64,000 bases of DNA, taken from the NCBI GenBank assembly GCA_039583875.1, contig CM077153.1, positions 70,998,482 to 71,062,481 on the forward strand, given 5' to 3'. The stretch is from Platanthera guangdongensis. Its lineage: Eukaryota; Streptophyta; Magnoliopsida; Asparagales; Orchidaceae. Position numbers and translations under genes: made by a program. This document shows positions 4,066 to 50,990 of this stretch, one piece after another (positions within the stretch are counted from its first letter, which is position 1; each line of letters begins with the position of its first letter). The notes beneath the pieces are model-generated. The model ran no database searches, was not told where the DNA came from, and saw only the letters and a program-made list of their open reading frames with translations.

Positions 4066-4141
4066 TGTAACACCCCAAAATTTGAGAGAGGGTCGACCAG
4101 CATTTTCTGGCCAAGTTTAGTTTCTAGCAGGGGGCACACGG

Positions 4142-4472
4142 CCTGGGACACGGGCGTGTCCTAGGGATTTTCAGGCTCCCGTCGACGTTTTTGTCGAGAG
4201 GTTGACGAATTTCGCTCGACGATGTGTCGAGACAAGGCACACGGCTTGAGACACGGGTGTGTCTCAGGGCGTGTCGAGCCCATGTCGTCGATCGGTCCGG
4301 GGAGTCGACGATTTTAGCTCGACGATGTGTCAAGACAGGGCACACGGCCTAGGACACGGGCGTGTCCAAGGCCTTGTCAGTTAGTTGACGAACTTCGCTC
4401 GACGAAGTTCACTCGACGTGTGTCGAGTGTCAAGACCGGTGCACACGGCCTGTGACACGGGCGTGTCACAGG
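4142..4472 (+). repeat. Covarying hairpin array in T1 U3
   Basis: Four hairpins share arms of the form CCTNNGACACG/CGTGTCNNAGG or close variants. Here 4142 is GG with one mismatch, 4245 is AG/CT, 4348 is AGG with an A/A mismatch, and 4449 is TG/CA and perfect. The 3' LTR copy at 11688-11711 is a perfect AG/CT stem. TCGACGA-rich spacers separate them. Confidence 0.85.
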
Positions 4473-5070
4473 GCGTGTCTCGCTTGGTCGACGAACTTCG
4501 CTCGACGAAGTGTCGAGACAGTGAACGCGGCCTGGAGCCCAGGCGTGTTAAGGTAGACACGGGTAAGGACACGGGCGTGTCCAGTACCCGTGTAGTTCTC
4601 GGGTTGTTATCGGGGCTGTGTCGATAGAGGCACACGACCGACAACACGTCCGTGTCAGCAGGGACACGGGCGTGTCGGGTTGAACACGGGCATGTCAGAT
4701 GCCCGTATGTCATTCCAGGCGCGTCGATTCGGGACGGCGAATGGGGGACACGGCCTTGGACACGGCCGTGTCACAAGCCGTGTTCGGCCCATGTGTTTTA
4801 TTTTTCAGGCGGATCGTGGCCATTCTTTCCCTTATTTTGGGATCTGACGGTTCAGGACTGATCTTGGGGAGTTAAGTCCGAGATTAGGGTTAGAAACCCT
4901 CATCCTTCTCCAAGCTTTCTCTTACTAAAATTCTAGAGAGAAGGGAGAGCAAGGAAGAAGGCGAAGTAGAGATCCGGCTGTTGGAGATGCTTCGGTGCTC
5001 CAAATCGCGAGCCGAGTCCAGATCCGTGGAGGCTAGATCTTTGCGAAGGTTTTCATCTGGCTATTTCTCC

Positions 5071-5094
5071 ATGGCTAGGAAGAGGAGTCGGAAG
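5071..5094 (+). CDS. T1 putative gag exon 1 (in LTR), MARKRSRK
   Basis: ATG (context TCCATGG) opens eight codons encoding a very basic peptide and ends at AAG followed by GTAACG, a strong plant-type donor, in phase 0. The proposed acceptor is at 6831 (TTTTCCTGAAG), after which the gag frame is open from 6832 although it has no ATG between its upstream stop (6784) and the gag core. The intron would be 5095-6831. The same layout occurs in T3, E0 and the solo LTR. The 3' LTR copy is at 12514. Confidence 0.6.
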
Positions 5095-6692
5095 GTAACG
5101 ACACTTCTCCTCTCAGTTTTAGGATGCACGTTCTAGCATCTTTCTTTTCTGGTTTTTAGGCACCAAACACTCAAATGAGAGGGGTTTGGCTCACTAAGGT
5201 TCAAGAGGAACCTCCGGGTCGATTGAGTCCGTCCCCGGCATGTTTTTGCATTAGAGATCCACTCCGTTAGTGGATTAGGGATGGTGTGTGAAGCCGTAGT
5301 CGTGACCGTTAGTCCGACTCGGTGATGTTGCATACGAGCTTTAAGGATTCGTAGAGATCCGTTGCGGCAAGATGTCGTTTGTGATGTGATGATGTTTTCC
5401 CCTTTTTCTCGAGTAAGTAAGTGTAGTCGGAACCGGAAAAGATTAGCTCCTCAATGGTGGTAGACGGTTTCCTTGGTGGACAAGGTTAGCTCCACATGAG
5501 CGGTAGATGGTTTCCTTGGTGGACAAGGTTAGCTCCGCATGAGTGGTAGATGGTTTCCTTGGTGCGCGGGAACGCTGCAGTACAAATGAGGGACTAGGGT
5601 GGAATTGTCTTGGTTTGTGATGTGCCAAGGCGTGGTTGTATCTTCGTGGTCGGCTGGCTATCCCGTGATGTACACGTCATGTGCGGAGAGTGTCCTGGCG
5701 AGACTAGTCCCCTTCTGTGAGACTGACGAGAATGCCAAGCATGGGGGTAAGCCCGGGCAATGAGGCCATGTGCGGGTGGGGTCCAGCAAGGCTTCTTAGA
5801 ATCGGTCAGTTGTGTTTGTTGGAATCCTGATATGAGACGTCAGATCTTGCAGGCAAGCCCGGGTCTAAGACCTTGAGCGGGTGGGGCCTTGGCAAGAGTT
5901 CCATGTGGCGGCTTGTGTGCCGATGGAGGGAATTGTGTTTCCCTTTTGTTTGCGGCTTTATTCCAATAGGGAAACGATGAGTACCCAATTGATGTGATGT
6001 TGTGCTAGATGCATACGCTATAGGGTGCCTTGGGTGAAGCCCGGGTCGTTGCATACATATTGCATAAGTAGGCCCCTTTTTATTATGTGCTCAACTAGTA
6101 GAGAACGTGTATGTTGTTTGAGACATCCAAGCTTGTTCTTAATGTATTTCTTATTTATATTTATATGTCGCATACGAAGTGCTGACTTGCAGGTTGGAGG
6201 GTTCCTCGGGGTCCGTTAGGGGCGGCCGGGAGGAGATGTGTTTGTTACACAGTTTGAGGTCAACCTTTGCTGACCCACGTTACTAATAATTTTTATAGGG
6301 CAAGGATCAAAAGTAGGTGCTAGCTCGCTGACCAGAAAGGCCTAAGCCTCATGAAGTGTTCCCCTCTTTTGTAACTCTACTTATGATGTTGTATGTTTGA
6401 GACTCTTGTTGTCCGGCTTGCACGCCGAGGTAGACTAGGAGTGCTTATGCACTTTCATGACTTTTGTATTATGTGAGTTTGGACTCTCCTTTGTTGTAAG
6501 GCCATAAGGCCATCGTTTATTCTCTAGTAGTGGTGGATAACTTCTAGTCGTGCTTGTGTTTCTGCTGTGTTGTGCAAAGAGTTTTGAGCGTTGGTAGTTA
6601 TATCATCTTATAATTCTAAAGATGTGGCGTCCGTATGTTGTGGGGCCCCGGCCGGACCCATATTATACGGTCATTACAGGGGAGGTGTTACA

Positions 6693-6708
6693 ATTTGCTA
6701 TCAGAGGG
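6693..6708 (+). other. T1 primer-binding site
   Basis: ATTTGCTATCAGAGGG directly follows the LTR. It matches the initiator Met-tRNA complement (TGGTATCAGAGC) with substitutions. Confidence 0.85.
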
Positions 6709-6831: not shown

Positions 6832-7993
6832 AGTGCAAGCAATGAGGCAGGTACGTCGAGAGAAAGAGAAGAACTTTCGGCGAGCAGTGCCACTGCTCCA
6901 GGTCTTTTGGGCACGGGTGTAAACCCGGCCGACTTCTGCCGCATGCTTGCATAAGCGATGGTGGCAGCCCAAGCTGCAGCGGCAGCTCAGGTAGCAACCC
7001 CTGCTACACCGGACACGGCGACGGCCGTTCCATGCGGAGAAGCCAGGCGAGTGGAGCCTTTGGCAGAAAGGGTGGTTGTCGGACACAGAGATCGGCACAT
7101 GAAGTATTTCTTGAGCTTCCATCCCCCGTCGTTCAAGGGAGTTGGTACGCCAACGGATGCGGAGGATTGGTGGGTTCAAATTCAAGAGCTTTTGAGGGCG
7201 GCAGAGACGCCTGGAGAAAAAAAATCTGAGTATGCGACGTTCATGTTGGAAGGAGATGCCAAGTTATGGTGGGTGAGCCATAGCGGCCGTCAGTTCCCTG
7301 GACGCACCCCATCGATGGAGGAGTTTGGGGATGCTTTTCTAAAGAGGTACATACCCGTTTCTACACGGTTGGCCATTCAGAGGCAGTTTCTGCACTTAAT
7401 GCAGCGCGACGAGACGGTGGACGAGTATGTGCTGGACTTCACCCGGTTGGGTCGTTACACGGGAACGACGATGGCAGATGATGTAGAGAGGGATAACCTC
7501 TTCTACCAGGGGCTGAGGGAGAATCTGAGGAAACCCCTCATTTCCATGAAGAGGGCCAGTTTTAATGAGCTTGTCGAGGCGGCCAGGATGTTGGAAAGTG
7601 ATCTGGAGCGAACCCAACATCGTAAGAGTTTCACTCCCAAGCAAGGGGAAGGGAAGCCTCCCCAATCCCAGGGAAAGTCTGAAGGGAGTAGGTGGAGGAG
7701 AAAGCCTCACACTTCCAGGTCCGGTAAGAAGAGCAGGTGGACGCCTGGAGGTTCTCACTCTAGGGGACCACCGACGTGCTACAACTGCGGTAAGGTGGGG
7801 CACATAGCTCGTGTTTGTCCTCAAGGAGGAGCAGAGCAAGGGACAAGGCAGGAGTAGACTGTGCGCTCCGGCCCCAGTGCCGCAGAGAAAGGAAAGATGG
7901 CGGAGTCAAGCGCTTCTCGGTTCCAACCGGTGCAACCATGGTCCTACAACCTTGGACAGTAGGAAGCGATCCGCCAAACCGATGTGGTGACAG
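6832..7993 (+). pseudogene. gag: T1 gag, exon 2, with stop codons
   Basis: This is the structural Gag of a Tekay-type element. The long open part is 6958-7857. It shows the retrotransposon gag domain (SFHPPSFKG, AEDWW, EGDAKLWW, FTRLGRYTG at about residues 50-160 of that part), a basic region, and one CCHC zinc knuckle (CYNCGKVGHIARVC, 7779-7820) for RNA binding. In-frame stops fall at 6952, 7855 and about 7951. The frame is otherwise continuous from the proposed acceptor (6831) to the gag-pol donor (7993), so these are point mutations. It has no usable ATG upstream of the core, which fits a spliced first exon. Confidence 0.85.
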
Positions 7994-8064
7994 GTATGAG
8001 GAAATTTAAGTGTAAATTTTGCGCTTCATACTTTTAGACTTTTTGTGTGACGTCTATGTTGTAG
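7994..8064 (+). other. T1 putative gag-pol intron, 71 nt
   Basis: The donor is ACAG|GTATGAG and the acceptor TATGTTGTAG|G; the interior is T-rich and the phase is 1. Splicing joins the gag frame to the pol frame just before the protease. Retention hits TAG within about 15 codons. T3 has the same junction with the same flanking residues (VVTG). Confidence 0.65.
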
Positions 8065-11000
8065 GTTTCGTATTAGTGTCTGGATACCCCACTAGGGTAT
8101 TGTTCGATACAGGAGCATCGCACTCCTTTCTTGCGGAGAGCTTCGTCCAGAGAATAGGAGTTGAGTCCTTCTTGGAGGACGCGGAGCTGAAAGTGCGCAT
8201 GCCCAATGGGTCATCCATGACCACCGTGGCCAAAGGGCGCATCTGTTGGGAGCTGGACGGAGTTGACTTCATTTTGGTAGCAGCGGTTTTACCATTGGTT
8301 TAGTTCGATGTCATTTTGGGCATGGACTGGATTGCAGAGCAGCGCGCCAGTATTGATTGCTTATCTAAGGTATTGACCCTAAGGAGCAAAGGTTAGGCGG
8401 AAGTCAAATTCGAGGGCCTTTGTGGAGTTGCCTATTCCCTAATTTTGGCCATGCAATTGATGCAGGCGGTTAACCAGGGTGGTGTAGCGCTTGTAGCGTT
8501 ATTGGAGGTTCGTCTCTTCCAGTTGTCTATTGAGGAGGTGCCCGTGGTGGCAGAGTTCAAGGATGTGTTTCCAGATGAACTTCCTGGAGCGCCTCCTCGG
8601 CGGGAGATCGACTTCTCGATCGAGTTGGTGCCAGAGGCTAGGCCGGTGTCACGTCCTCCGTTTAGGATGGCACCAAAGGAGTTGTCTGAACTCAAAGTAC
8701 AGTTACAGGAACTGTTGGAGCAATGGTATATTAGACCCAGTTCTTCGCCGTGGAGAGCGCCAGTGTTGTTTGTAAGGAAGAAAGACGGTAGTATGCGGCT
8801 GTGCATAGACTACCGAGAGCTGAACAAACTGACCGTTAAGAATAAGTATCTGATTCCTCGGATAGACGACTTGTTCGACAAGTTAGTGGGGTCAGTTGTG
8901 TACTCAAAATTGGACTTGAAGTCAGGCTATTATCAGTTGCGAATTCGGAACGAAGACATACCCAAGACTGCTTTTGGTATGAGGTATGGACACTTTGAGT
9001 TTACGGTGATGCCGTTCGGGCTGAAGAACGTGCCTTCTGTGTTCGTGGACCTTGTGAATCGGGTATTTCGGGAATACTTAGATTCTTTTGTGGTTGTCTT
9101 CATCGATGACATCTTGGTGCATTCCAAATCGGAAGTGGAGCATGAGACCCACTTGAGAGTGATCTTGCAAGTGTTGAGGGAGAATCACTTGTATGCAAAA
9201 TTCTCAAAGTGCGAGTTCTGGTTAGCGAAAGTGGCATTTTTGGGCCACGTGATTAGTGGGGATGGGGTGGCAGTGAATCCAACAAAAGTGGAAGCCATCA
9301 GAGATTGGCCAGTTTTGAGGACCGTGGCGGAAGTCCGATGTTTTCTTGGACTAGCCGGGTATTATAGGTGATTCGTGGAGAATTTTTCGCGGATAGCTCT
9401 ACCCCTCACCTCACTCACTCGTAAAGATCATAAGTTTGTGTGGACTCAGGAGTGCAGTCAATCATTCGAAGCACTAAAGGAGAGACTGATGATGGATCCA
9501 ATCCTAAGTCTACCGCAAGGGACCGAGAGATTTCAGATCTTCAGTGACACATCGGGATGCGGTTTGGGTTGCGTTTTGGTGCAACATGTCAAGGTGATAG
9601 CTTTTGGATCTAGACAGCTGAAGCCTCATGAGAGGAATTATCCCGTCCATGACTTGGAGTTGGCGGCGGTAATTTTTGCGTTGAAAATATGGAGACATTA
9701 TGTGTATGGTGCAAAGTTGGAGATCTTCACGGATCATAAAAGCCTGAAGTATCTCTTGGATCAAAAGGACTTGAACATGCGGCAATGCAGGTGGCTTGAG
9801 TTTCTCGGAGACTACGAGGTGGCGATTCAGTACACGCCAGGTAAAGACAATGTGGTGGCGGATGCCTTGAGTAGGAAGTACTCGGGGCAAGGGAATTGGA
9901 TCGAAGCTCATGATGAGCGGTTGGTACAGGAATGGGAGTCCCTTGGTTTGGAATATGTGGCGAGAGGCGAGTCCAGCATGGCTCGGTTGAACTGGATTGA
10001 AGTGCAGAACGACTTATGCGATCACATTCGGAAAGCGACTCGGTTGGATGTGGAGTTTCAACCATATGTGTTGGAGGCTCAAAAGGGAGAGATCAGCGCC
10101 TGGGAAATGATTGATGAGATTCTGAGGAAGGACGGAAGGGTTTGTATACCGCAGTTCGGCAAAATCCGTGAGGAGTTGATGTTTGAGGCTCACTTCACAA
10201 AGTACTCCATTCACTCGGGCAGTACAAAGAGGTACTTGGATATGAAGAAATCCTTTTGGTGGCCGGGGCTGAAGCGGGACGTAGCTTTGTATGTGAATCG
10301 TTGCCAAACTTGCGGCTTGGTTAAGGCCGAATGTTAGAAGCCGGGCGGGTTCCTGAAGCCCCTTCCAATCCCTGAATGGAAATTTGATGACATCTCCATG
10401 GATTTTCTACATGGTTTGCCTAGATCGCAGCAAGGTAATGATGTTATTTGGGTGATCGTGGATCACTTAACCAAAGTGGCCCACTTCATCCCAAATCGGA
10501 AGGAGGACAGCGTGGAGAAGCTGGTGGAGTTGTATGTTCGCAATATTGTGCGACTGCACGAGATTCCTAAGAGCATAGTCAGCGATCGAGATGGACGGTT
10601 TACGTCCAAGGACTAGAGATTGGTTCAGAAGAGTTTGGGCGCGAAGCTAAAGTTCAGCACGACGTTCCATCCTCAAACTGATGGGCAAACCGAAAGAACG
10701 AACCGTACTATGGAGGATATGCTGCGAATGTGCATTCTTGACTTCGGCAAGAAGTGGGAGGATCACCTCTTCATGGTGTAATTCGCGTACAATAACAGTT
10801 ATCAAGCAAGTATAAAAATGATGTCATACGAAGCTTTGTATGGGAGATGGTGTCGAACACCGATGTCTTGGATATAGGAGGGAGACACCAAAATTTTGGG
10901 AAATGAAGTGGTAGTTGACGCTTGTAAGTTGGTACGGACCATTCAAGAGCGTATGAAGGTGGCGCAAGACCGGCAAGCAAAATATTCTAATGCTCATCAC

Positions 11001-11450
11001 AGGAAGTTGGAGTTTACGCTAGGTGATTGGGTCTATTTGAAGATCAAGCCGTTCAAAGGCGTCTCACGGATTCGCCGACTCAAGAATTTGAGTCCAAGGT
11101 TTTTGGGGCCTTTTGAAATTGTTGAACGAGTGGGAGAAGAAGCCTATCGGTTGGCGTTGTCCGCGTAGTTGAGTGGACTGCATGACGTATTTCATGTCTC
11201 CGTCTTGAGGAAAGCATTGGTGGAGGCTAGTGTGGTGATCGAGCCGGCATCGGTGCCAATAGAAGAATATTTGAGGATGCGAGTCCGTCCAATTTCCATA
11301 GAGGACTCGGAGACTTGGCTGTTGCGGAATAAAGAGGTTAAACTCGTGAAAGTCCGGTGGGACAATTGCGGTCATGAGGAGCTCTCTTGGGAGCGAGAAC
11401 AAGCCATGCGGGAAGAGTATCCAGAGCTCTTCATTTCAGGTACCATTTAA
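8065..11450 (+). pseudogene. pol: T1 pol (protease, RT, RNase H, integrase, chromodomain), eight stops
   Basis: One frame holds all domains: protease with [10 protein letters not shown] (about 8100); RT with [14 protein letters not shown] (about 8790) and FIDDILVHS (about 9105); RNase H ending ADALSRK (about 9870); the integrase zinc-binding region; the DDE core ([29 protein letters not shown]); and the C-terminal GPF...LHDVFHVSVLRK with a chromodomain (VKVRWDNCGHEELSWERE, about 11350). In-frame stops lie at 8301, 8394, 9369, 10335, 10614, 10779, 10875 and 11166. There is no frameshift, so decay has been by point mutation. Intact T3 serves as the reference. Confidence 0.93.
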
Positions 11451-11508: not shown

Positions 11509-14135
11509 TGTAACACCCCAAAATTTGAGAGAGCGTAGACCAGCGTTTTCTGGACAAGTTTGGTTTCTGGCAGGGGGCACACGGCCTGGGGCACGGGCGT
11601 GTCCCAGGGCGTGTCAGGGTCCCGTCGACATTTTTGTCGAGAGGTCGACGAATTGCGCTGGACGATGTGTCGAGACAAGGCACACGGCCTGAGACACGAG
11701 CGTGTCTCAGGGCATGTCGAGCCCGTGTCGTCGATCGGTCCGGGGAGTCGACGATTTTAGCTCAACGATGTGTCGAGACAGGGCACACGGCCTAGGACAC
11801 GGGCGTGTCCAAGGCCGTATCTGTTAGTCGACGAACTTCGCTCGACGAAGTTCACTCGACGAGTGTCGAGTGTCGAGACCGGGGCACACGGCCTGTGACA
11901 CAGGCGTGTCACGGGGCGTGTCCCGCTTGGTCGACAAACTTCGCTCGATGAAGTGTCGAGATAGTGAACACGGCCTGGAGCCCAGGCGTGTTGAAGTAGA
12001 CATGGGTAAGGACACGGGAGTGTCCAGTACCCGTGTAGTTCTCGGGTTGTTTTCGGGGTTGTGTCCATGGAGGCACACGGCCGACAACACGGCCGTGTCA
12101 GTAGGGACACGGGTGTGTCGGGTTGAACACGGGCATGTAGGATGCCCGTGTGTCGTTCCAGGCGCATCGATTCGGGATGGCGAATGGGGGACACGGCCTT
12201 GGACACGGCCGTGTCACAAGCCGTGTTCGACCCAGGTGTTTTATTTTTCATGCGGATTGTGTCCATTCTTTCCCTTATTTTGGGATCTGATGGTTCAGGA
12301 CTGCTCTTGGGGAGTTAAGTCCGAGATTAGGGTTGGAAACCCTCATCCTTCTCCAATCTTTCTCTTACTAAAATTCTAGAGAGAAGGGAGAGCAAGGAAG
12401 AAGGTGAAGTAAAGATCCGACTGTTGGAGAGGCTTCGGTGCTCCAAATCGCGAGCCGAGTCCAGATCCTTGGAAGCTGGATCTTTGCGAAGGTTTTCATC
12501 CAGCTATTTCTCCATGGCTAGGAAGAGGAGTCGGAAGGTAACGACACTTCTCCTCTCGGTTTTAGGATGCACGTTCAAGCATGTTTCCTTTTCTGGTTTT
12601 TAGGCACCAAACACTCAAATGAGAGGGGTTTGGGTCGCCAAGGTTCAAGAGAAACCTCCGGGTCTATTGAGTCCATCCCCGGCATGTTTTTGCATTAGAG
12701 ATCCGCTCCGTTAGTGGATTAGGCCTGGTGTGTGAAGCCGTAGTCGCGACCGTTAGTCCGACTCGGTGATGATGCATACGAGTTTTAAGGATTCGTAGAG
12801 ATCCGTTGCGGCAAGATGCCGTTTGTGATGTTATGATGTTTTCCCCATTTTCTCGAGTAAGTACGTGTAGTCGGAACCGGACAAGGTTAGCTCCTCAATG
12901 GCGGTAGATGGTTTCCTTGGTGGACAAGGTTAGCTCCGCATGAGCGGTAGATGGTTTCCTTGGTGGACAAGGTTAGCTCCGCATGAGTGGCAGATGGTTT
13001 CCTTTGTGCGCGGGAACGCTGCAGTACAAATGAGGGACTAGGGTGGAATTGTCTTGGTTTGTGATGTGCCAATGCGTGGTTGTGTCTCCGTAGTCGGCTG
13101 GCTATCCCGTGACGTACACGTCATGTGCGGAGAGTGTCCCGGCGAGACTAGTCCCCTTCTGTGAGATTGACGAGAATGCCAAGCATGGGGGCAAGCCCGG
13201 GCAATGAGGCCATGAGCGAGTGGGGTCCAGCAAGGCTTCTTAGAATCGGTCAGTTGTGTTTTTTGGAATCCTGACATGAGACGTCAGAGCTTGCAGGCAT
13301 GCCCGGGTATAAGACCTTGAGCGGGTGGGGCCTTGGCAAGAGTTCCATGTGGTGGCTTGTGTGCCGATGGAGGGAATTGTGTTTCTCTTTTGTTTGCGGA
13401 TTTATGCCAATGGGGAAACGATGAGTACCCAATTGATGTGATGTTGTGCTAGATGCATACGCTATAGGGTGCCTTGGGTGAAGCCCGGGTTGTTGCATAC
13501 ATGTTGCATAAGTAGGCCCCTTTTTATTATGTGCTCAACCAGTAGAGAACGTGTATGTTATTTGAGATATCCAAGCCTATTCTTATTGTATTTTTGTTTA
13601 TATTTATATGTCGCATACGAAGTGGTGACTTGCAGGTTGGAGGGTTCCCCGAGGTCCGTTAGGGGCGGCCGGGAGGAGATGTGTTTGTTACATAGTTTGA
13701 GGTCAGCCTTTGCAGACCCACGTTACTAATAATTTTTACAGGGCAAGGATAAAAAGCAGGTGCTAGCTCACCGGCCAGAAAGGCCTAAGCCTCATGAAGT
13801 GTTACCCTCTTTTGTAACTCTACTTATGATGTTGTATGTTTGAGACTCTTGTTGTCCGGCTTGCACGCCGAGGTAGACTAGGAGTGCTTATGCACTTTCA
13901 TGACTGTTGTATTATGTGAGTTTGGACTCTCCTTTGTTGTAAGGCCATAAGGACATCGTTTATTCTCTAGTAGTGGTGGATAACTTCTAATCGTGCTTGT
14001 GTTTCTGCCGTGTTGTGCAAAGAGTTTTGAGCGTGGGTAGTTATATCATCTTATAATACTAAAGCTGTGGCGTCCGTATGTTGTGGGGCCACGGCCGGAC
14101 CCATATTATACGATCATTACAGGGGAGGTGTTACA
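11509..14135 (+). repeat. T1 3' LTR
   Basis: It has the same 2,627 bp length and termini as the 5' LTR, followed by the ATATG duplication. Point differences are scattered. It carries the hairpin array (11587-12230), the second exon-1 copy (12514) and the 49-bp tandem units (12880-13000). There is nothing coding. Confidence 0.93.
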
Positions 14136-14140
14136 ATATG

Positions 14141-14462
14141 ATATGTTGTTAATGTGTGGCCGGCCTGCGTGCCGATGTACTGAAGCTATATGTACTAAGC
14201 TTAATTGTAAGGCCATAAGGCCAAGCTTGTTGTATACTTGTATAACATTCCTTCGTGGTGTGATATATAAAGGTTTGTTTATATATTGTGGAGATTCTAA
14301 TGAGCTGAGTTCAATCAACGTAAAAGCTTCCGCTAGAATGCTCTATGTTCGGTTGTGCAACTCTGATATTAACCCGTAACGTCGCTGCCTGTTTGTGGCA
14401 TATGGTGTGAGGCCCCGGCCGGACCTTATATTATATTTCATGTAACAAATGGAGGTGTTACA
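14141..14462 (+). repeat. E0 5' LTR, right part
   Basis: This resumes the E0 LTR after T1. It matches the end of the E0 3' LTR (27690-28011) and ends in GGAGGTGTTACA. Confidence 0.88.
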
Positions 14463-20289: not shown

Positions 20290-21445
20290 TGGGGTAACGT
20301 GGGGCATATAGCTCGTGACTGTCGGGTTGGTCAGCCAAAGGCTGAAACGATGATCGGAGCGTCAGATGGTGATAAGGGAAAGGTAATGGTGGAGTCCACT
20401 ACCGCCCAGCCGCGACCCCGAGTATTAATCTTGGCCAGCAGAAGGCTATACAACAAAGTGACATTGTCACCGACATGTGGTGATATATGGAATTGCTGTT
20501 TTGGTTCTTTCATACCTTATTTGTAGCTTCCATACGAGGTGTTTGTATTCGGCTTTGTCCGACGAGAACCCTGTTTGATACTGGTACTTCTCATTCATTT
20601 CTATCTATCGGGATTGCTGTGTGAATGCATCTATGCTACTGATATCGGAATGTGATGTGATTTTTGGTATGAACTGGCTCTCGGAACAACGTGCCTTTAT
20701 TGACTGTAAATTAGACGAGATCACACTGGTCCAGGATACCGAGCATGCGACTAAGTTCGCTGGTATGCAATGGGTGAGAGGGACCTTTATGTCTGCACTC
20801 CAAGTCGTCAATGCTGCTCGGAAGGGCACAGAGTTATTCTTCATGCTGATTCAGGCTGTTGAGCCAAAGGCCACTGTGATATTCCGATTGTATCGAAGTT
20901 TGTGGACGTGTTTACTAAGGATCTTCCTGTGCTACCACCCTAGCGGGAGATCGACTTCATGATCGAGTTGGTGCCCGGTGCGAAACCTGTGGCCCGCTCG
21001 CCATATCGTGTCACGCCAAAGGAAATGGCTGAATTAAAGGTCGAATTGCAAGAGTTGCTGGAGCAGGGATATATATGCCCAAGTATGTCACCTTGGAGCA
21101 CACCTGTTCTGGTTGTGAAAAACAAAGATGGTGGTTTGCGGTTATGTATTGACTATCATGAAAGGAATATGCTGATAGAGAAGAACAAGTATCCGATTCC
21201 ACAGATAGAGGAATTATTCGATCAGCTAGTGGGATCAACCATCTATTCCAACTTGGATTTGAAATCTGGATATTACTAGTTGAGAATTCAGGATGGTGAC
21301 CTTCCTAACGCTGAATTTGGAACATGTTACAGTCATTATGAGTTCACGGTAATGTCGTTTGTGCTATGCAATGCGCCACTGGTGTTCATGGACCTGATGC
21401 ACCGAATGTTCCGAGAATACTTGGACCGATTTGTGATTGTTTTCA
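20290..21445 (+). pseudogene. E0 gag tail, protease and RT N-terminal part
   Basis: [10 protein letters not shown] (third, partial knuckle) and a Gag tail are followed by a decayed gag-pol junction. Protease remnants (LFDTGTSHSF split by frameshifts, about 20565-20600) and ECDVIFGMNWLSEQ follow. RT starts at about 20960 ([38 protein letters not shown]) with a stop at 21277 and runs to FVIVF at 21445. There the solo LTR interrupts the catalytic F-I-D-D box. Multiple frameshifts. Confidence 0.8.
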
Positions 21446-35048: not shown

Positions 35049-35064
35049 ATTAGGTATCAAAGCC
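35049..35064 (+). other. G1 primer-binding site
   Basis: ATTAGGTATCAAAGCC directly follows the LTR and matches the Met-tRNA complement with changes. Confidence 0.8.
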
Positions 35065-35315
35065 GGTCGTTTCAATTTCTATATTGCAAACGTCCTTGCT
35101 CTTTTTCGTTGGTACGAATTAATTAAAAAAAGCAAAAAATAATTTTTTTCTGGTCTGCCAATATCGGTCTAAAATCTTTATTTTTCTGCGAAAATATGAA
35201 ATTTTTTTTTAACGTTCCTTGTTTCTATCACTTCGGGAAATTATAAAAATATTTTGTTTTCAGTATAGGGTCAGCACTAGGAAAATTCGTCTTTCAAAAT
35301 TTTGGGTAACCCTGT

Positions 35316-36360: not shown

Positions 36361-36460
36361 CACCATATTAGACTCGACTCCCGATGACCTAGTTTATGAA
36401 GCTGCTGAAGAGGATGACCCAGATGGTGTCCCAAGTGATTTAGAGGACGATCACCACCTT

Positions 36461-39983: not shown

Positions 39984-39988
39984 TTTTT

Positions 39989-40001
39989 AGCGGGGGAGGA
40001 T
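39989..40001 (+). other. G1 polypurine tract
   Basis: AGCGGGGGAGGAT immediately precedes the 3' LTR. Confidence 0.85.
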
Positions 40002-40520
40002 TGATGTCGCAGCATCGCCGCCACTACTTGATGATGATCCGGTTGTCGAGGCGCTACAACATAAAGATGTTAGGAGCCATGATGATGCTAACGGGAGGCA
40101 ACATTGCAACCTCCGTCCGTGGCGTGCTAAGCCCACTTGAAGATTCATTTTAAAATCATGCTCTTAGTTACGTTATTTATATTTATATTTTATATTTGAG
40201 AATATAAAATTATTCCATACTTGGGTAATAATTTTATATTCATGAGTGAACTTATTTATTTATTTCCTGCATTTAAAACATGTGATGTGTAATTAACCAC
40301 CCGGATGGATGAGATGTCATCTCCATTTTGGATGGTTAAATGTGTGTTTGTAACTCCTATGTGTTTGTAACTCCTATGTCTTTGTAAGTCCTATATAAGG
40401 AGACCACTTTATGAGAATTTATAGACAAGAAGAAGAATTTGAATCCAAAAGAAACTCCTTAGGAGAATTCGGCCAAGAGGAGATCTCCAAGCCGCCGCCC
40501 CCCTTGTGGTGTCAAACTGC

Positions 40521-40558
<38 letters not shown>

Positions 40559-41137
40559 TGGTTCCTCCATCCCTCTTCGGTGCAACTCCAGCGTGGATTC
40601 CTTCAGTGCGACTCCAAGGAAGAAGGTTGTAGCCCCTTTCGGTGTGACGCCGATGGATCCGTGGAGAGAGTGATTCTCCCACCATATCTTGTGAGCACGG
40701 TGAATCCGAGTTGGGTAAACTCTTCCCCTCTCTTTGTGTTTCCTCTCTTAGATTTGTGGAAGGTTAACCATCGTGTTCTCCGTATCTTTTAAAATTCAAT
40801 CGCTTTCAAATCTTTGAATTGAATTCGTTATTGTTCGTGTTTCCTATTTTTCGGACCGGGTAGGTCCATTTTTCTTAAGCGGATGTAGGCCTATAGCGTT
40901 GATCTTTATCTCAAAAGGATTGACAACCTTTGCGTTAACTTTGGGAACGATCTGACTCATTTTTCATCGTTGTTTTAGAGTCGATCATTCTCCGAATGTG
41001 CTTATGTTTTGTGCGCGAAACGATCACATACTAAGGGAGATAGATGCTTGTGTAGGTGCGGCAGATCTAGAGTGCGTTGTTGGCGAACTAGAGCCTTCTC
41101 TCGTGTAGATTTTATGTTAGCGACATATGCTACACCA
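40002..41137 (+). repeat. G1 3' LTR
   Basis: It matches the 5' LTR throughout, with the same termini, then AATAC. The extra length comes mainly from a run of 36 C (40522-40557) where the 5' LTR has CCCCCC-ATGTG. Transcription-related features are as in the 5' copy. Confidence 0.92.
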
Positions 41138-41162
41138 AATACTATGCAAGGTAGAGGATAGA
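41138..41162. other. 25 bp sliver between two retrotransposons
   Basis: AATAC (G1 duplication), 15 bp, then ATAGA (T3 duplication). It is what remains here of the interrupted Athila-like element; its reverse strand keeps that element's reading frame open. Confidence 0.85.
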
Positions 41163-41207
41163 TGTAACAGCCCAAAGTTCTGAAACATGCAAATTTGGGT
41201 GACACGG

Positions 41208-41582
41208 CCTGGGACACGGGCGTGTCCCAGGGCGTGTCAGGTGACACGGCCTGCGACACGGGCGTGTCGCAGGGCGTGTCGAGTTGTGTCGACGATTGGG
41301 CTTTGTCTCGACGATTTTTTTTGGTCTCGACGATTCGTCGAGAGGAGGCACACGGCCTAGGACACGGGCGTGTCCAAGGCCGTGTCGCATGCTCGACGAT
41401 TTTTACTCGACGATCGTCGAGTGTCGAGAAGTGCGTGTCGAGTGTTGAACACGGCCTGTGACACGGGCGTGTCACAGGGCGTGTCAAATCAGGCGACGAA
41501 CTCAGCCCGCCGAAAGAATTCGACAGGGCGTGTCTTTGTGCCGTGTCTGGGCACACGGCCTGGGACACGGGCGTGTCACAGG
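41208..41582 (+). repeat. Covarying hairpin array in T3 U3
   Basis: Hairpins at 41208-41231 (GG/CC, perfect), 41250-41273 (CG/CG, perfect), 41356-41379 (AGG with A/A mismatch), 41455-41478 (TG/CA, perfect) and 41559-41582 (GG with G/A mismatch). Arms are CCTNNGACACG and CGTGTCNNAGG with a GG centre. TCGACGAT-type words fill the spacers. The second copy is in the 3' LTR (48573 on). Confidence 0.9.
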
Positions 41583-42051
41583 CCGTGTGAAGTCTCGGGA
41601 TGATTTGGGATTTTTTCACCCAGGTACACGGCCACAGACACGGGCGTGTCTGAAGGCGTGTTGGTGACACGGCCCATGACACGGGCGTGTCACTGGTTTG
41701 GATAAGTCGGTTGACCACCGCTTGAGGCACACGGCCAGGCACACGGCCGTGTTCGAGGCCGTGTCGGGTCAAAATGTGTGTTTTTGGCAGAATCGTGGCC
41801 GTCCATTTCTTCAGTCTGGATCCAAGGGCTGAAAGCTCTTCTTCTTTTTCCTTAAGGGCCGAAATCAGAAAAGAATCCTCACTTTGAATTGGCCTTCATC
41901 TTTCTTCAAGAGAGAGAGAAAGAGAGAGAGAAGGAGGAGGAAGAAGGGAAGGGGGCTGCTGTTGGTGGTGCTGCGGTTTACCGGCGAGAGATCCGAAGCC
42001 AGCGTTGCGGAGGAAACGCTCTTGCGAGTCTTGCAAGCAAGCTTTCAAGCC

Positions 42052-42075
42052 ATGGCACCGAAGCGATCGTCAAGG
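42052..42075 (+). CDS. T3 putative gag exon 1 (in LTR), MAPKRSSR
   Basis: ATG in the context AAGCCATGG, a strong Kozak match, opens eight codons ending at AGG followed by GTAACG, phase 0. The matching acceptor is CCACCTTTAG at 43830, giving a 1,755 nt intron covering the rest of the LTR and the primer-binding site. The gag frame from 43831 has no ATG before codon 43 and a stop upstream at 43804, so a spliced start is the simplest explanation. The peptide is basic and could serve nuclear import or RNA binding; that is speculation. Confidence 0.65.
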
Positions 42076-43612
42076 GTAACGACTTTTCTTCCTAGCCATG
42101 TGAAGGCTTCTGTTTTGGCATATCTTTTGATTCCCCCACCAAGAGGTGGCTGCTTTTGGGAGTCATTTGGGTGGATGCTTGAAATCCCCTTGGTATTGCA
42201 TATAGATCCGGAAATGAGTACGGAATAGGCATGCTGTGTGAAGCCCATCTGGACAGGTTGGTCTGGATTGGTGACGTTGCATGAACCGGAGAAGACTCCG
42301 TGATAAACGTGTAGTGTAAGGAGTCTATGGGTTATGCCTGCGAAAAGGAGTAGCAGGAAGTACTGGGGTGGTAGTCCAGGAAAATAGCCTTGTGGTGGTT
42401 TTGGGTCCAACCTGTGGTTGAGGCACAGGAAGTACTGGTGGGACCAGGAAAGGCCCTTTTTGTGATGCTTGATGTCATAGGGTGTCCACCTGTGAAGCGA
42501 GTCACAGGAAGTACTGGTGTGCCCAGGAAAGACCCCTGACATTTGTGCTTATGCGGTGTCCACCTGTGAAGAGAATCACAGGAAGTACTGGTGCGCCCAG
42601 GAAAGACCCGTTGTTGCTGTGAGGAAATGGGTATAGTGACATACCCAGGCTTGAATGCCAGGAACAGGATTGGTGAGACCGACCCGCGCCTTTGATATAG
42701 CCGTGAGTACGCTGTACTCGGAGAAGGCAAGACGATTTGAGCAACGGGGGGTGGAGGATCCGACCTGCGCTATGTCCGTCCGACGTGAGACCAAAAAGTG
42801 CGGTCTGTTGGAGCGCATAGCAAGAGTCTTCGCCCTGCGCGCCATGACACAAAGGGGGGCTACGGGCCATCCCGGTGTCCGAGGACTAACTCCGGCTGCA
42901 CGCCATGGAGTAAATGCTCAAGAGTGTTACCGTTGGGTGATAACCCTGATACGGTGGTGGGCAAGAGGTTGCCAGAACACCAAGAATGTGCCCTGAAGTG
43001 CACGGACCGTTGGGCCGGGCGGCGAACGGTTGTGATGGCTTGTGTGCGTGAAAGCACCTTTGATGATATAGCTTGCCATACTTGTGATATGATATGCCTG
43101 CAGGGAAAATACCGCTGCCCCGAGAGGAGGGGTAGGGTCGTTATAATTTGGTCAGCTGAACGCTGACCGTTGCTTTTGTTTGCCACCGTTGGGTGGATTG
43201 TCCTTGCACAGGTGCTGGAGAGCCGAGCGGGTCGCATAGAGGTTGATGCTCCTGCTGGTGTTGCTGCTGCTGCTAGCCCTCGAAGGCTAATGTTCTTTTG
43301 AGTGTTTTCTTTTTGTGGCCGGCCTGCGCGCCAATTTGTTTAGGCCACTGCATGAAAGCCCTGTAAGGCCATAAGGCCAATACTTTATACATGTTGTCAG
43401 ACATTCCTATCTATATATATAAAATGTGGAGTTTATATTTGGACATTCATGGGGAGTTCAAGTAGCTTAGGCTTCCGCTAGAATGCTTGGGATAGGTGCG
43501 ATGCGCTGCTCTGGTATCATCCTGTACCTTCACCGACTGTTTTGTGGTATATCCTGTGGGGCCCCGGCCGGACCTTCTAGAATATATCATATGAACGGAT
43601 GGGGTTGTTACA

Positions 43613-43626: not shown

Positions 43627-43830
43627 TGTCTTGGTCTTTCCCTCTCGAAGTCGTGGCCGACTTCTTTTGTGGGGTGGCGAGCACGTGGTTGTGCACACCA
43701 AAGTCTACGATTGAACTCCTGAATGTCCATGATAGGAATGCATTTTGTATGTTTGAGGAACCTGCGTGTTCCTATTTTGTGTTGTTTGCTTGGGTACGAC
43801 CGCTAATGTGTGTGTCTTGTCCACCTTTAG

Positions 43831-45000
43831 GTGACTCGGAGTGGAGCTGGGCAGTCTGAGCCCCAGCGTTCTGATGAAAGTACGGCACCAGCCGCGGTGC
43901 CTACACCTCCACCGTCTGTGGAACATGTCCGTTTAGTTGCGGAGGCCTTGTTTACCATGATCCAAGGCCAGCCACTTAGGCAGGAGCAAGCGGCTGTGGG
44001 GCCAGAACAGGTGGCGACAAGGCCTGAACCTGTCGTGGATGTGGTACCTCGAGCGGCCGAGAAGCAGCTAACGCGGTTTATGAGTTTCCATCCTCCTACG
44101 TTTTCGGGAGCGGGAACCCCGACGCAGGCTGAGGATTGGTTATCGCGCGTCAAGCGAGTGATGACGGCGATAGGCACGGCGGAGCATCAGAAAGTTACCT
44201 TAGCCACCTTCTTGCTTGAAGGAGAAGCTCGGTTATGGTGGGATGAGATGGAGTTGCATCATTTGGCGGGTCGTCCGTTAACCCAAGTGTCGATGGAAGA
44301 ATTCTCCCGGCTCTTCCTTGCGAAGCACCTTCCTGTGGCTCAACGGATAGCCATGGAAAATGAATTCCAACGGTTGACTCAAGGTGATGGCAGTGTTGAC
44401 GCGTACCTGCATGAGTTTACTCGCTTGGGGCGGTATGCGGGTTCGATTTTTGCTGATGAGCAGAGGAAGACTAATCGGTTCTATGAAGGACTGAGGGACG
44501 AGGTGAGGTTCCTTGTGTCTAGTTCGGTGAACCAGGGTTTCCAAGCGTTGGTTGACACTGCGACCGCATTGGAAAAAGATATGAAGAGGGTGCAAGGGAA
44601 GAGAGCGTTGGTGATGACGCAACCGGAGTGGAAGGCGCCCCGATCTGGAAAATCGTTTTATAAGAAGAGATGGGGTAAGAAGTCCAAGCCTAGTGGACAA
44701 GCTCCTTCATCAGTTGCAACGGGAGCAACTTCAGGGGCAACCTCCAAGCCAGAAACTCGTACCTGCTTCAATTGTGGTAGGATGGGGCACATTGCGCGAG
44801 ATTGCCGGATGCCGCCAAAGAGTGAAAAGAAGGCGGGAGCATCTTATGCGGAGAAAGGAAAAGCGGTGGTGGATTCCTCTGCCTCGCAAGCGCAACCCCG
44901 GGTCTACAATCTTGGCCTGCAGGAGGCCATCAAGCAGAGTGACGTGGTCACAGGTATGAGTTTAGTTTTGCTTATGCTAATGTTTGTATGCTTAGCTTAG
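43831..45000 (+). CDS. gag: T3 Gag (exon 2, read through retained intron)
   Basis: 390 codons counting from the proposed acceptor. A Pro/Ala/Glu-rich N-terminus is followed by the gag core ([14 protein letters not shown], about residues 85-98; [22 protein letters not shown] at about 200) and a basic Ser-rich region. One zinc knuckle, [14 protein letters not shown], lies at residues 312-325. The last codons ([15 protein letters not shown]) and the stop at 44998 lie within the proposed gag-pol intron, so this is the product of unspliced RNA. It forms the virus-like particle and packages RNA in this family. The GTG at 43831 is not a convincing start; see exon 1 at 42052. Confidence 0.92.
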
Positions 45001-45044
45001 TACCCCTACGTTTGTGGTTTGTGTGTGTGACATGTTTGTCATAG
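44954..45044 (+). other. T3 putative gag-pol intron, 91 nt
   Basis: Donor ACAG|GTATGAG, acceptor TTTGTCATAG|G, T-rich interior with CTAAT- and CTTAG-like branch motifs, phase 1. Splicing joins codon G|GC and puts gag (frame of 43831) exactly in frame with pol (frame of 45047). Size and composition are typical of short plant introns. T1 has the same junction at 7994-8064. Confidence 0.7.
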
Positions 45045-48000
45045 GCTTTGTGATGATTCGGGACACGCTGGCGCGAGCACTGTTTGATACAGGTGCATCA
45101 CATTCTTTTCTGTCTAGTGAATTTCTTACGCGGCTTGGGATACCCAGTCGTGCAAAGGCAGATAGCGTCAGAGTGGTGTTGCCGAATGGTTGTTGGATGC
45201 TTGCGGATCAAGCTTGCGATGTGGCGGTTCAAGTAGGAAGTCGGGATTTTTGTTTAACCGCATTTGTTTTGCCAATTTCGGAATTCGATGTGATTTTTGG
45301 GATGGATTGGCTTGCGGAGCAGCATGCTATGATCGATTGCCAGTCCAAAGAAATCACGTTGGGCCAGAATACCGAACAGGAGACCAAGTTCGCGGGTATG
45401 CGAGGAGTAGGCGGGACGTTGATGTCTGCACTCCAGGTAGTCAAAGCTGTTCGGAAGGGTGCGGAGTGTTACTTTGCACTAATTCAGGCTGTTGAGCCTA
45501 AGGCCACTTTGTGTGAGGTTCCAATTGTGGCAGAATTTGCTGATGTGTTTCCCGCAGATCTCCCTGGGCTACCACCCCAGCGGGAGATTGACTTCACAAT
45601 TGAGTTGGTGCCAGGTGCGAAACCCGTGGCCCGCTCGCCATATCGCGTTGCGCCAAAAGAGATGGCGGAGTTGAAGGTTCAACTACAAGAAATGCTAGAG
45701 CAAGGCTATATCCGCCCAAGTATGTCACCTTGGAGCGCGCCTGTGCTTTTTGTAAAGAAGAAAGATGGTGGGTTACGGTTGTGTATAGACTACCGTGAAT
45801 TGAATAAGCTGACTGAGAAGAATAAGTATCTGATACCTCGGATTGATGAATTATTTGATCAGCTAGTGGGCTCGACCGTCTATTCAAAGTTGGACCTGAA
45901 GTCTGGTTATTACCAGTTAAGGATTCGGGAAGGTGACATTCCCAAAACCGCATTTGGAACGCGTTATGGGCACTATGAGTTCACAGTCATGCCCTTTGGA
46001 TTGTGTAATGCGCCCTCGGTGTTTATGGATTTGATGCACCGTATTTTTCGTGAGTACCTGGATCTGTTTGTGATAGTGTTCATTGATGATATCCTGGTGT
46101 ACTCGAAGTCCAAAGCGGAGCATGAGATTCATTTGCGGTTAGTGTTGAATACGTTGAGGCAAAATCAGCTCTATGCCAAGTTCTCCAAGTGCGAGTTTTG
46201 GCTATCGTCAGTGGCATTTTTGGGCCATGTGGTGAGTGGAGCGGGCATTGCAGTGGATCCAGCGAAGATAAGAGCCATACAAGATTGGCCAATACTGTCT
46301 TCCGTGGCCGAAGTTAGGAGTTTCCTTGGACTTGCGGGCTATTATAGAAGATTTGTGGAAAACTTCTCGCGGATCGCTTTGCCGCTAACCACACTGACGC
46401 GAAAAGATCAGAAGTTCGTTTGGACGCCAGAGTGCGCACGAGCTTTTGAAGAGCTGAAGGTGCGGTTGACCACGGCGCCGGTGTTGTCTTCGCCATGTGG
46501 AACCGATGGGCTTGTAATATATAGTGATGCCTCAGGGAGCGGCTTAGGCTGCGTTCTTCTGCAGAGCGGAAAGGTGATTGCTTATGGCTCACGCCAGCTG
46601 AAGGTGCACGAGCGGAACTATCCCGTCCATGATTTGGAATTAGCAGCGGTGATTTTTGCACTGAAGCTGTGGCGACACTACCTTTATGGTGTGAAGGTGG
46701 AGATCTATACTGATCATAAGAGCCTTAAGTATCTGTTGGAGCAGAAAGAGTTGAACATGCGACAACGAAGGTGGTTGGAGTTCCTTGGGGACTACACTTT
46801 CGAGATTCATTATACACCTGGGAAGGGGAATGTTGTCGCGGATGCCTTGAGTCGGCGAGTTCCGGCTAGAGCGAATTGGTTACAAAGGCATGATGAACGT
46901 CTGATCCAGGAGTTGGAGGCATTGGAGATCTATTGTGTTGACAAAAATTCCACTGCCATTGCGTGTTTGAACTGGACCGAGGTGCAATGTGACCTTGCGG
47001 ACCGAGTTCGACGGGCAACGGAGTTGGATGAAGATCTCTTGCGCTATGGGAATGAAGGGCCAGAGGGCAAATTCACCTGGATTGACGGTCTGTTGCGAAA
47101 AGAAGGCCGATTGTGCGTCCCAAATGTGGGGAAACTGAGGGAAGAACTGATGTATGAAGCACATTATACGAAGTATTCCATTCACCCCGGGAGCACAAAG
47201 ATGTTCAACGATATGAAAAAGCTCTTTTGGTGGCCAGGGCTTAAGAAAGATGTTGCCCTTTACGTGGCCAAATGCCAAACATGTGCGATGGTGAAGGCGG
47301 AATGCCAAAAGCCGGGTGGTTATTTGAAGTCACTGCCGATCCCAGTATGGAAATTTGATGATATTTCCATGGATTTTGTGCATGGATTGCAAAGATCGCA
47401 GCGAGGAAATGATTCCATTTGGGTGATAGTTGACCGGCTAACAAAAGTAGCACATTTTCTCCCAAACAGGCGGGATGATTCGGTTGAAAGTTTGGCAAAG
47501 TTATATGTTGATCAGATTGTGCGGCTTCACGGTGTTCCTCGAAGCATCGTAAGTGATCGAGACGGGCGATTCACGTCAAATGATTGGAGATTAGTTCACC
47601 GACTGTTGGGCACGAAATTGACCTTCAGCACGGCCTTTCATCCCCAAACGGATGGCCAAACTGAACGTACCAACAGAACAATGGAGGACATGCTCCGAAT
47701 GTGCGCCCTTGACTTCGGAAAGAGATGGGAAGATCATCTCTATATGGTCGAGTTTGCATATAATAACAGCTACCAGGCAAGTATTGGGATGGCACCATAT
47801 GAAGCCCTATATGGCAGGAAATGTCGTACTACCTTGGCTTGGGTAGAAGCGGGTGAAGCCCGGGTTGTTAAACCAAATGAGGTGGATGAAGCAAACTCAA
47901 CCATTCGGACTATTCGAGAGAGATTGCTAGTTGCTCAAGATCGACAAGCGAAGTACTACAACGCCAAGCACCGGAACGTTGAATTTGCGGTTGGCGATTG

Positions 48001-48409
48001 GGTCTACTTGAAGATCAAGCCATTCAAAGGTGTCTCCAGGATTCGACGATTGAAAAAGTTGAGTCCAAGGTATTTGGGTCCCTTTGAAGTGGTTGAGCGA
48101 ATTGGCGAAGCAGCTTATCGGCTCGCTCTGTCGGCGGACTTGGGTGGGTTACATGATGTCTTTCACATCTCGGTGCTGCGGAAAGCCGTGAAAGATCCAG
48201 CTCAAGTGATCGCGGATGATCGTGTGCCGGTGGAGTATGGGCTAACAACGAGAGTTAGACCCATTCAGATCGAAGATCGAGCCGAGAAACAGTTGCAGAA
48301 CAAGACGGTCGGTATGGTGAAACTCCGGTGGGACAACTGCGGCCGTGAAGAGTTGACGTGGGAACGCGAGCATACCATGCGAGAAGAGTTCCCTGAGTTG
48401 TTTCTGTAA
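45045..48409 (+). CDS. pol: T3 Pol: protease, RT, RNase H, integrase, chromodomain
   Basis: The frame is open from 45014 (1,131 codons), but the splice site suggests coding resumes at 45045. Residues counted from 45014: protease DTGASHS (Asp 25); RT with [14 protein letters not shown] (about 252) and FIDD catalytic Asp 358 and 359; RNase H with [10 protein letters not shown] (about 503) and ADALSRR (about 610); integrase zinc region (HYTKYSIH...CQTC, about 715-755) and DDE residues Asp 787, Asp 848 and Glu 884 (D35E spacing); a C-terminal chromodomain [18 protein letters not shown] (about 1098-1118). Every catalytic residue I looked for is present. It ends 118 bp before the 3' LTR. Confidence 0.96.
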
Positions 48410-48491: not shown

Positions 48492-48527
48492 AATTTCGAG
48501 GACGAAATTTTTGTAGGAGGGGAGGAT
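48492..48527 (+). other. T3 3' hairpin and polypurine tract
   Basis: AATTTCG..CGAAATT hairpin at 48492-48509, then TAGGAGGGGAGGAT (48514-48527) up to the 3' LTR. Confidence 0.85.
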
Positions 48528-50990
48528 TGTAACAGCCCAAAGTTCTGAAACAGGCAAATTTGGGTGACACGGCCTGGGACACGGGCGTGTCCCAGGGCGT
48601 GTCAGGTGACACGGCCTGCGACACGGGCGTGTCGCAGGGCGTGTCGAGTTGTGTCGACGATTGGGCTTTGTCTCGACGATTTTTTTGGTCTCGACGATTC
48701 GTCGAGAGGAGGCACACGGCCCAGGACACGGGCGTGTCCAAGGCCGTGTCGCATGCTCGACGATTTTTACTCGACGATCGTCGAGTGTCGAGAAGTGCGT
48801 GTCGAGTGTTGAACACGGCCTGTGACACTGGCGTGTCACAGGGCGTGTCAAATCAGGCGACGAACTCAGCCCGCCGAAAGAATTCGACAGGGCGTGTCTT
48901 TGTGCCGTGTCTGGGCACACGGCCTGGGACACGGGCGTGTCACAGGCCGTGTGAAGTCTCGGGATGATTTGGGATTTTTTTCACCCAGGTACACGGCCAC
49001 AGACACGGGCGTGTCTGAAGGCGTGTTGGTGACACGGCCCATGACACGGGCGTGTCCCGTGGGCGTGTCACTGGTTTGGATAAGTCGGTTGACCACCGCT
49101 TGAGGCATACGGCCAGGCAAACGGCCGTGTTCGAGGCCGTGTCGGGTCAAAATGTGTGTTTTTGGCAGAATCGTGGCCGTCCATTTCTTCAGTCTGGATC
49201 CAAGGGCTGAAAGCTCTTCTTCTTTTTCCTTAAGGGCCGAAATCAGAAAAGAATCCTCACTTTGAATTGGCCTTCATCTTTCTTCAAGAGAGAGAGAAAG
49301 AGAGAGAGAAAGGAGGAGGAAGAAGGGAAGGGGGCTGCTGTTGGTGGTGCTGCGGTTTACCGGCGAGAGATCCGAAGCCAGCGTTGCGGAGGAAACGCTC
49401 TTGCGAGTCTTGCAAGCAAGCTTTCAAGCCATGGCACCGAAGCGATCGTCAAGGGTAACGACTTTTCTTCCTAGCCATGTGAAGGCTTCTGTTTTGGCAT
49501 ATCTTTTGATTCCCCCACCAAGAGGTGGCTGCTTTTGGGAGTCATTTGGGTGGATGCTTGAAATCCCCTTGGTATTGCATATAGATCCGGAAATGAGTAC
49601 GGAATAGGCATGCTGTGTGAAGCCCATCTGGACAGGTTGGTCTGGATTGGTGACGTTGCATGAACCGGAGAAGACTCCGTGATAAACGTGTAGTGTAAGG
49701 AGTCTATGGGTTATGCCTGCGAAAAGGAGTAGCAGGAAGTACTGGGGTGGTAGTCCAGGAAAATAGCCTTGTGGTGGTTTTGGGTCCAACCTGTGGTTGA
49801 GGCACAGGAAGTACTGGTGGGACCAGGAAAGGCCCTTTTTGTGATGCTTGATGTCATAGGGTGTCCACCTGTGAAGCGAGTCACAGGAAGTACTGGTGTG
49901 CCCAGGAAAGACCCCTGACATTTGTGCTTATGCGGTGTCCACCTGTGAAGAGAATCACAGGAAGTACTGGTGCGCCCAGGAAAGACCCGTTGTTGCTGTG
50001 AGGAAATGGGTATAGTGACATACCCAGGCTTGAATGCCAGGAACAGGATTGGTGAGACCGACCCGCGCCTTTGATATAGCCGTGAGTACGCTGTACTCGG
50101 AGAAGGCAAGGCGATTTGAGCAACGGGGGGTGGAGGATCCGACATGCGCTATGTCCGTCCGACGTGAGACCAAAAAGTGCGGTCTGTTGGAGCGCATAGC
50201 AAGAGTCTTCGGCCTGCGCGCCATGACACAAAGGGGGGCTACGGGCCATCCCGGTGTCCAAGGACTAACTCCGGCTGCACGCCATGGAGTAAATGCTCAA
50301 GAGTGTTACCGTTAGGTGATAACCCTGATACGGTGGTGGGCAAGAGGTTGCCAGAACACCAAGAATGTGCCCTGAGTGCACGGACCGTTGGGCCGGGCGG
50401 CGAACGGTTGTGATGGCTTGTGTGCGTGAAAGCACCTTTGATGATATAGCTTGCCATACTTGTGATATGATATGCCTGCAGGGAAAATACCGCTGCCCCG
50501 AGAGGAGGGGTAGGGTCGTTATAATTTGGTCAGCTGAACGCTGACCGTTGCTTTTGTTTGCCACCGTTGGGTGGATTGTCCTTGCACAGGTGCTGGAGAG
50601 CCGAGCGGGTCGCATAGAGGTTGATGCTCCTGCTGGTGTTGCTGCTGCTGCTAGCCCTCGAAGGCTAATGTTCTTTTGAGTGTTTTCTTTTTGTGGCCGG
50701 CCTGCGCGCCAATTTGTTTAGGCCACTGCATGAAAGCCCTGTAAGGCCATAAGGCCAATACTTTATACATGTTGTCAGACATTCCTATCTATATATATAA
50801 AATGTGGAGTTTATTTTTGGACATTCATGAGGAGTTCAAGTAGCTTAGGCTTCCGCTAGAATGCTTGGGATAGGTGCGATGCGCTGCTCTGGTATCATCC
50901 TGTACCTTCACCGACTGTTTTGTGGTATATCCTGTGGGGCCCCGGCCGGACCTTCTAGAATATATCATATGAACGGATGGGGTTGTTACA
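48528..50990 (+). repeat. T3 3' LTR
   Basis: Nearly identical to the 5' LTR. It keeps a 13 bp segment at about 49047-49059 (between two GGCGTGTC copies) that the 5' LTR lost. The exon-1 copy is at 49431-49454. ATAGA follows. Confidence 0.95.

Follow-up and report, generated by a model that had tools for sequence, protein, structure and literature searches.

Section 13 of PMC6317226 describes most plant LTR retrotransposon groups as encoding one polyprotein and treats the single-ORF layout as relatively insignificant for classification. The same section places an intron between GAG-PROT and RT in Ogre, a Ty3/gypsy element of the Tat lineage found in pea and Medicago, and gives Bianca of plants spacer-separated ORFs, the description there naming no intron. 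In the Ty1/copia elements BARE1 and EVD, splicing near the gag/protease boundary decides between Gag and Gag-Pol according to the parts of PMC3735527, PMC8892269 and PMC12786077 used here; spliced RNA gives Gag and unspliced RNA gives Gag-Pol. Foamy viruses express Pol from a spliced RNA, as a separate protein (PMC7828637, in part). Tyl3 of Yarrowia also has ORFs separated by a spacer, in which the authors' scan found no intron, as stated in the portion of PMC5014426 used here.

We analyzed a window of 64,000 nt at 70998482-71062481 on contig C7 of a 4.25-Gb Platanthera guangdongensis assembly. In the Tekay-like elements found there an intron lies before the protease and measures 70 to 91 nt in the group. 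The splicing logic is the same as in Ogre, at another boundary and in another lineage. Compared with BARE1 and EVD, the roles of the two RNAs would be reversed. As in foamy viruses, Pol would come from spliced RNA, but as Gag-Pol fused in frame; as in Tyl3 and Bianca, a spacer separates the ORFs. No description of a gag/protease intron in a Tekay-like element was found in the parts of the literature searched, mostly openly accessible papers. To our knowledge, it is largely open how plant LTR retrotransposons with a single polyprotein make excess Gag. An abundant group in this orchid seems to rely on a short intron for this, and the genome, with many copies that differ by exactly this intron, keeps a natural record of its removal. 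With such a record, copy counts and cDNA can test how often the RNA is spliced, whether spliced RNA is packaged and what becomes of copies limited to Gag-Pol.

Results

Elements in the window and their classification

The window holds several Ty3/gypsy elements (Table 1). T3 is a young copy by its LTRs, with open frames for gag (43831-45000) and pol (44996-48409). T1 is older than T3 and has stops within gag, and T2, a third copy, is a nested, decayed relative. A further gypsy element at 33944-41141 has a likely LTR pair (33944-35052 and 40002-41141, 90.8% identity), and its pol-like stretch at 36992-39632 shows 31 to 39% identity to T3 pol.

Table 1. Coordinates of features in the window (strand as given; position 1 is the first nucleotide of the window).
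Feature	Position	Strand	Basis or remark
T1 5' LTR	4066..6701	+	94.2% identical to 11509-14144
T1 gag exon, broken by in-frame stops	6955..7993	+	
T1 intron, 71 nt, GTATGAG...TGTAG, phase 1	7994..8064	+	kept in 20/21 exon-2-selected copies read
T1 pol exon, broken, spread over several ORFs	8065..11435	+	67% aa identity to T3 pol
T1 3' LTR	11509..14144	+	LTR self-comparison
T2 gag/pol boundary; resembles an intron but lacks both splice sites (GT changed to AC, TAG to TCG)	20293..20650	+	
T3 5' LTR	41154..43612	+	98.7% identical to 48522-50990; Jukes-Cantor distance 0.013
Possible second 3' splice site CCACCTTTAG/GTG at gag start	43829..43831	+	acceptor-like; gene models enter gag here
T3 gag exon (capsid + CCHC knuckle), ends at splice donor	43831..44953	+	Pfam Retrotrans_gag 7e-17, zf-CCHC 7e-8
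T3 intron, 91 nt, GTATGAG...CATAG, phase 1	44954..45044	+	in 40/40 exon-2-selected copies
T3 pol exon: protease, RT, RNase H, integrase	45045..48409	+	Pfam RVP_2, RVT_1, RT_RNaseH, Integrase_H2C2
T3 3' LTR	48522..50990	+	LTR self-comparison

The domains of T3 follow the Ty3/gypsy order (gag, PR, RT, RH, INT), which fits the Tekay clade of chromoviruses. Pfam finds one RNase H region in T3 (two overlapping models), as judged with general models that are not specific for the aRH of the Tat lineage, and the Ogre arrangement, an intron between GAG-PROT and RT, is not that of T3. No Pfam chromodomain match was obtained for T3 at E<=1; its C-terminus (...FPELF) may resemble a type II chromodomain. 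Tekay is our working name for the group, assumed from motifs and domain order. The intron-bearing T3 is not a single-ORF polyprotein, while in intronless T1-type copies a single frame continues across the junction.

The gag/protease intron in T3 and T1

The first-pass annotation had pointed to ACAG/GTATGAG...TAG/G in phase 1 at the gag-pol boundary of T3 and T1, and this GT-AG intron pattern is confirmed at both. As had also been noted, the frame that retains the intron ends soon after the donor: the T3 tail has 15 residues, Gag being ended by an in-frame TAG at 44998-45000, and the T1 tail reads GMRKFKCKFCASYF followed by a stop. The spliced frame enters the protease with like flanking residues; the fused reading of T3 is open, and the T1 exon pieces give DVVTG and FVLVSGYPTRVLFDTG. 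Both introns are T-rich as described (T content 0.46 in T3 and 0.44 in T1), a content matched by only 23 of 4638 (T3) and 14 of 4596 (T1) stretches of the same length elsewhere in each internal region. The intron interiors, said to differ between the two elements, do so but not throughout, the last ~25 nt being partly alike.

All GTs and AGs of each internal region were ranked with a plant splice matrix composed for this analysis. By this matrix the donor is the top-scoring GT in both elements, out of 343 in T3 and 339 in T1; 27 of 344 AGs score above the acceptor in T3 and 1 of 412 in T1. The T3 boundary offers 67 GT-AG pairs, 12 of them with an open fused frame, and the intron pair scores highest at 7.2 (next, -1.0). 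The T1 pair is not among the open fused-frame pairs because T1 gag has upstream in-frame stops, and T1 by itself proves little. By coordinates, pol lies in the +1 frame relative to gag in T3 and in the -1 frame in T1.

Abundance and intron types

In the 4.25-Gb assembly the 11-mer ACAGGTATGAG, which spans the donor, has 13,647 matches versus 1,267 for the reversed control. Of its first 48 places on one contig (C1), a script identified 26 as gag/pol junctions of the group and inspection by eye another four, 30 in all. The remaining 18 lie in other sequence, and the 11-mer is therefore not specific by itself. The script did not find the acceptor in five of the 26 scripted junctions. Extrapolated from this sample of one contig end, the genome would hold several thousand junctions. 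Three intron types were seen, of 90-91, 77-78 and ~71 nt, and like residues flank all of them. A comparison of substitution rates between intron and flanks had been suggested. Pairwise divergence in exon 1, intron and exon 2 was 0.043, 0.088 and 0.063 for the 91 type (13 donor-selected copies), 0.085, 0.105 and 0.116 for the 77 type (eight donor-selected copies) and 0.08, 0.21 and 0.13 for the 71 type (two donor-selected copies). The intron is thus the fastest-changing segment in the 91 and 71 types, but in the 77 type it is not above exon 2. In one T1-type copy (L020) the intron after GTATGAGG is filled by repeat units of ~22 nt instead of the normal interior.

Copies selected by the protease exon alone

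With the T3 protease exon as query, the best 40 copies were taken, T3 among them. The intron is present in 40/40, with GT in 40 and AG in 39 (the acceptor AG is lost in L055). Their exon identity is 99 to 100%; being nearly identical there, they say little on long-term constraint. The T1 protease exon likewise gave a best 40 that include T1, and 21 of the other 39 were read: 20 carry the intron and one (L103) lacks exactly the intron. Ten loci (L089-L098) stood outside the scoring. Pooling both types, GT is intact in 60/60 introns and AG in 59.

The 20 T1-type introns show no deviation in 80 GT/AG cells and 67 deviations in 1400 interior cells (14/120 at +3 to +8, 41/820 in the middle and 12/460 in the last stretch before AG). 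At the interior rate ~4 GT/AG deviations would be expected; splice-site change, which the first-pass annotation had proposed to compare with neutral sequence, goes in the expected direction, with modest statistical strength. The length test is stronger. Intron lengths of 70, 71, 72, 73 and 74 nt occur in 1, 6, 10, 2 and 1 of the 20 copies, and the lengths modulo 3 (0/1/2) divide 10/3/7. The flanks stay fixed: 19/20 copies have 49 nt between a fixed anchor in exon 1 and the donor, and 38 nt separate the acceptor from the FDTG codons in 19/20. All three frame classes therefore occur at fixed exon distances, which argues against frameshifting, since frameshifting needs a fixed frame relation and splicing does not.

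An in-frame stop is present in every located intron, namely 40/40 of the T3 type, 20/20 of the T1 type and 8/8 of the 77-nt type (nine loci tried, eight located), or 68/68 in total. In the copies read, the retained intron ends Gag after 3 to 28 more residues.

Intronless copies

The junction of L103 was then used as query, and 40 of 1482 candidates were scored, L103 among them. All 40, and so at least 40 T1-type matches, span the fused junction with no net gap, at 89 to 100% identity. Exact absence of the intron was found in 21/21 fused matches read (L103 and 20 more), and in all 20 newly read copies ...GACAG or GACAT is joined directly to the protease exon with the frame open across the junction. 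The exact exon-exon product of a spliceosomal intron thus occurs in the genome as T1-type intronless copies. Such precise removal of a GT-AG stretch is what reverse transcription of spliced RNA leaves behind. The best 40 of the T3 type include no intronless copy; all are intron-bearing, and the fused copies are therefore shown for the T1 type only. An inverted stretch that resembles an LTR from another family (L119:1306-2221) interrupts the gag of L103; it is 86% identical to window positions 63051-64000.

A tree was built from exon columns only, with 18 intronless and 19 intron-bearing rows; L103, L124, L132, L153 and L154 had been dropped after a first FastTree run (insertions or long branches). 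Intron state changes five times on the best tree and six times with the outgroups counted as intron-bearing; FastTree parsimony with the five dropped rows kept gives seven changes. The AU test rejects a tree in which all intronless rows group together as a single clade (p 0.00023), none of 200 bootstrap trees (0%) has one change, and well-supported branches alone force only two. The intronless rows are clustered, with five changes versus a mean of 12.6 to 12.7 after shuffling, and small intronless groups seem to have multiplied. Several intronless rows sit closest to the root of the T1-type tree, but with outgroup branches as long as 0.39 and 0.54 this root is unsure. Given the clustering, the rootward intronless rows and the two forced changes, we are unsure how many separate losses there may have been, and recombination between genomes could move the intron state about. 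That the intronless rows are not one clade fits a spliced RNA reverse transcribed more than once. Given the intronless groups, the intron may be dispensable or its function may be supplied in trans.

Protein models

The protein search listed 120 of 356 matches. Seven Platanthera models (P0002, P0008-P0012 and P0023) have DVVTG or NVVTG joined to F at the junction. Among the six other Platanthera matches listed, P0001 ends DVVTGTV and P0024 has DVVTGIL, and the motif did not locate the junction in the remaining four, P0025 and P0028-P0030. Outside Platanthera, the matches listed are gene models for polyproteins in other plants, compared at the protein level only. According to the part of PMC9023349 used here, the P. 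guangdongensis genome was annotated by MAKER with RNA-seq. Some of the fused models may derive from intronless copies. A search of IMG/VR for gag relatives gave three pattern matches, none confirmed, in a collection that may omit the window's own genome.

Discussion

We consider it probable that this Tekay-like Ty3/gypsy group carries a 70 to 91 nt, phase-1 spliceosomal intron through which one transcript would serve two ends. The unspliced RNA would be both genome and Gag mRNA and presumably founded the intron-bearing copies. The spliced fraction would be the Gag-Pol mRNA, fused in frame, and the efficiency of splicing would set the ratio of Gag to Gag-Pol. Spliced RNA would sometimes be packaged and reverse transcribed, leaving intronless single-frame copies. 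Removal of the intron by the spliceosome in vivo is strongly implied, since there are copies that lack exactly the intron and these do not form a single clade. The first-pass annotation had attributed the ratio of Gag to Gag-Pol to intron retention, which would replace frameshifting or readthrough. Its spliced intron is strongly supported by the intronless copies, by splice sites and a junction kept under length drift, and by the fused protein models; for control of the ratio by retention versus splicing we infer a role from the layout, with its stop in 68/68 introns. A two-way switch is possible, though we lean against it: unspliced RNA would yield Gag and intron-bearing copies, and spliced RNA would yield Gag-Pol and intronless copies that make Gag-Pol only and depend on intron-bearing relatives for free Gag, a partnership in which the splicing rate would set both the ratio and the birth of dependents.

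Gag-Pol might instead be made by programmed frameshifting, readthrough or reinitiation over a degenerate spacer, the GT-AG look being incidental. The gag and pol frames do abut or overlap in T3 and T1, and a Met follows soon after the junction in T3 pol, but this Met is missing in T1 and P0008, the pol frame differs in direction between T3 and T1, and exactly intronless copies are left unexplained. Frameshifting and readthrough were rejected on the frame classes of the T1-type spacers, which span all three, and we regard the whole proposal as very improbable. Splicing of the kind used by EVD of Arabidopsis and BARE1 of barley, where the product is an RNA for Gag alone, would share the boundary and an intron size near that of BARE1 (104 nt, in the part of PMC3735527 used here). 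The reading frames have the opposite polarity: the fused frame is the spliced one, and the stop lies in the retained intron. On these frames the EVD/BARE1 polarity was rejected, and we give it almost no credence.

Two further explanations accept the intron and concern its use or its history. Splicing could be constitutive and host-like, aiding export or expression with no ratio switch, the unspliced RNA being genome only and excess Gag coming from elsewhere. The top-ranked donors and the fused gene models would agree with this. We think it unlikely, however, in view of the in-frame stop past the donor in all introns examined and of the close T3-type copies, 40/40 of them intron-bearing; these copies indicate that unspliced RNA reaches particles, and it could therefore also be translated. 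As to history, the intronless state could be the old one in the T1 type, the intron having been passed on when co-packaged genomes recombined instead of being lost repeatedly. Template switching is established for LTR elements, change counts cannot separate gain from loss, and the rootward intronless rows would fit. Against this, the intron has the same site, phase, donor and reading in the T3 and 77-nt types, so that an ancestral intron is simpler, and the T1-type root is itself unsure with such outgroup branches; we judge an intronless ancestor to be rather improbable.

Start of gag and repeats in the window

In the T3 gag frame the first ATG comes only at codon 43. Gene models reach the gag start from differing leaders, two of them with residues also found in an LTR (43318), and P0025 begins MTRSGAG. 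Around 43747-43831 there may be a leader intron whose removal would take out the primer-binding site. One candidate donor at 43747 (ATG CAT TTT/GTATGTTT) fits well in T3, but phase is lost in L005 and L006. Repeats occur elsewhere in the window. At 15122-19826, two stretches of ~814 bp (15123-15936 and 19012-19825) resemble one another, and each also itself, in direct and inverted orientation (92 to 96%). Element LTRs at 41200-41590 and 63112-63465 contain short repeats of ~40 and 100 to 250 nt, some of them inverted.
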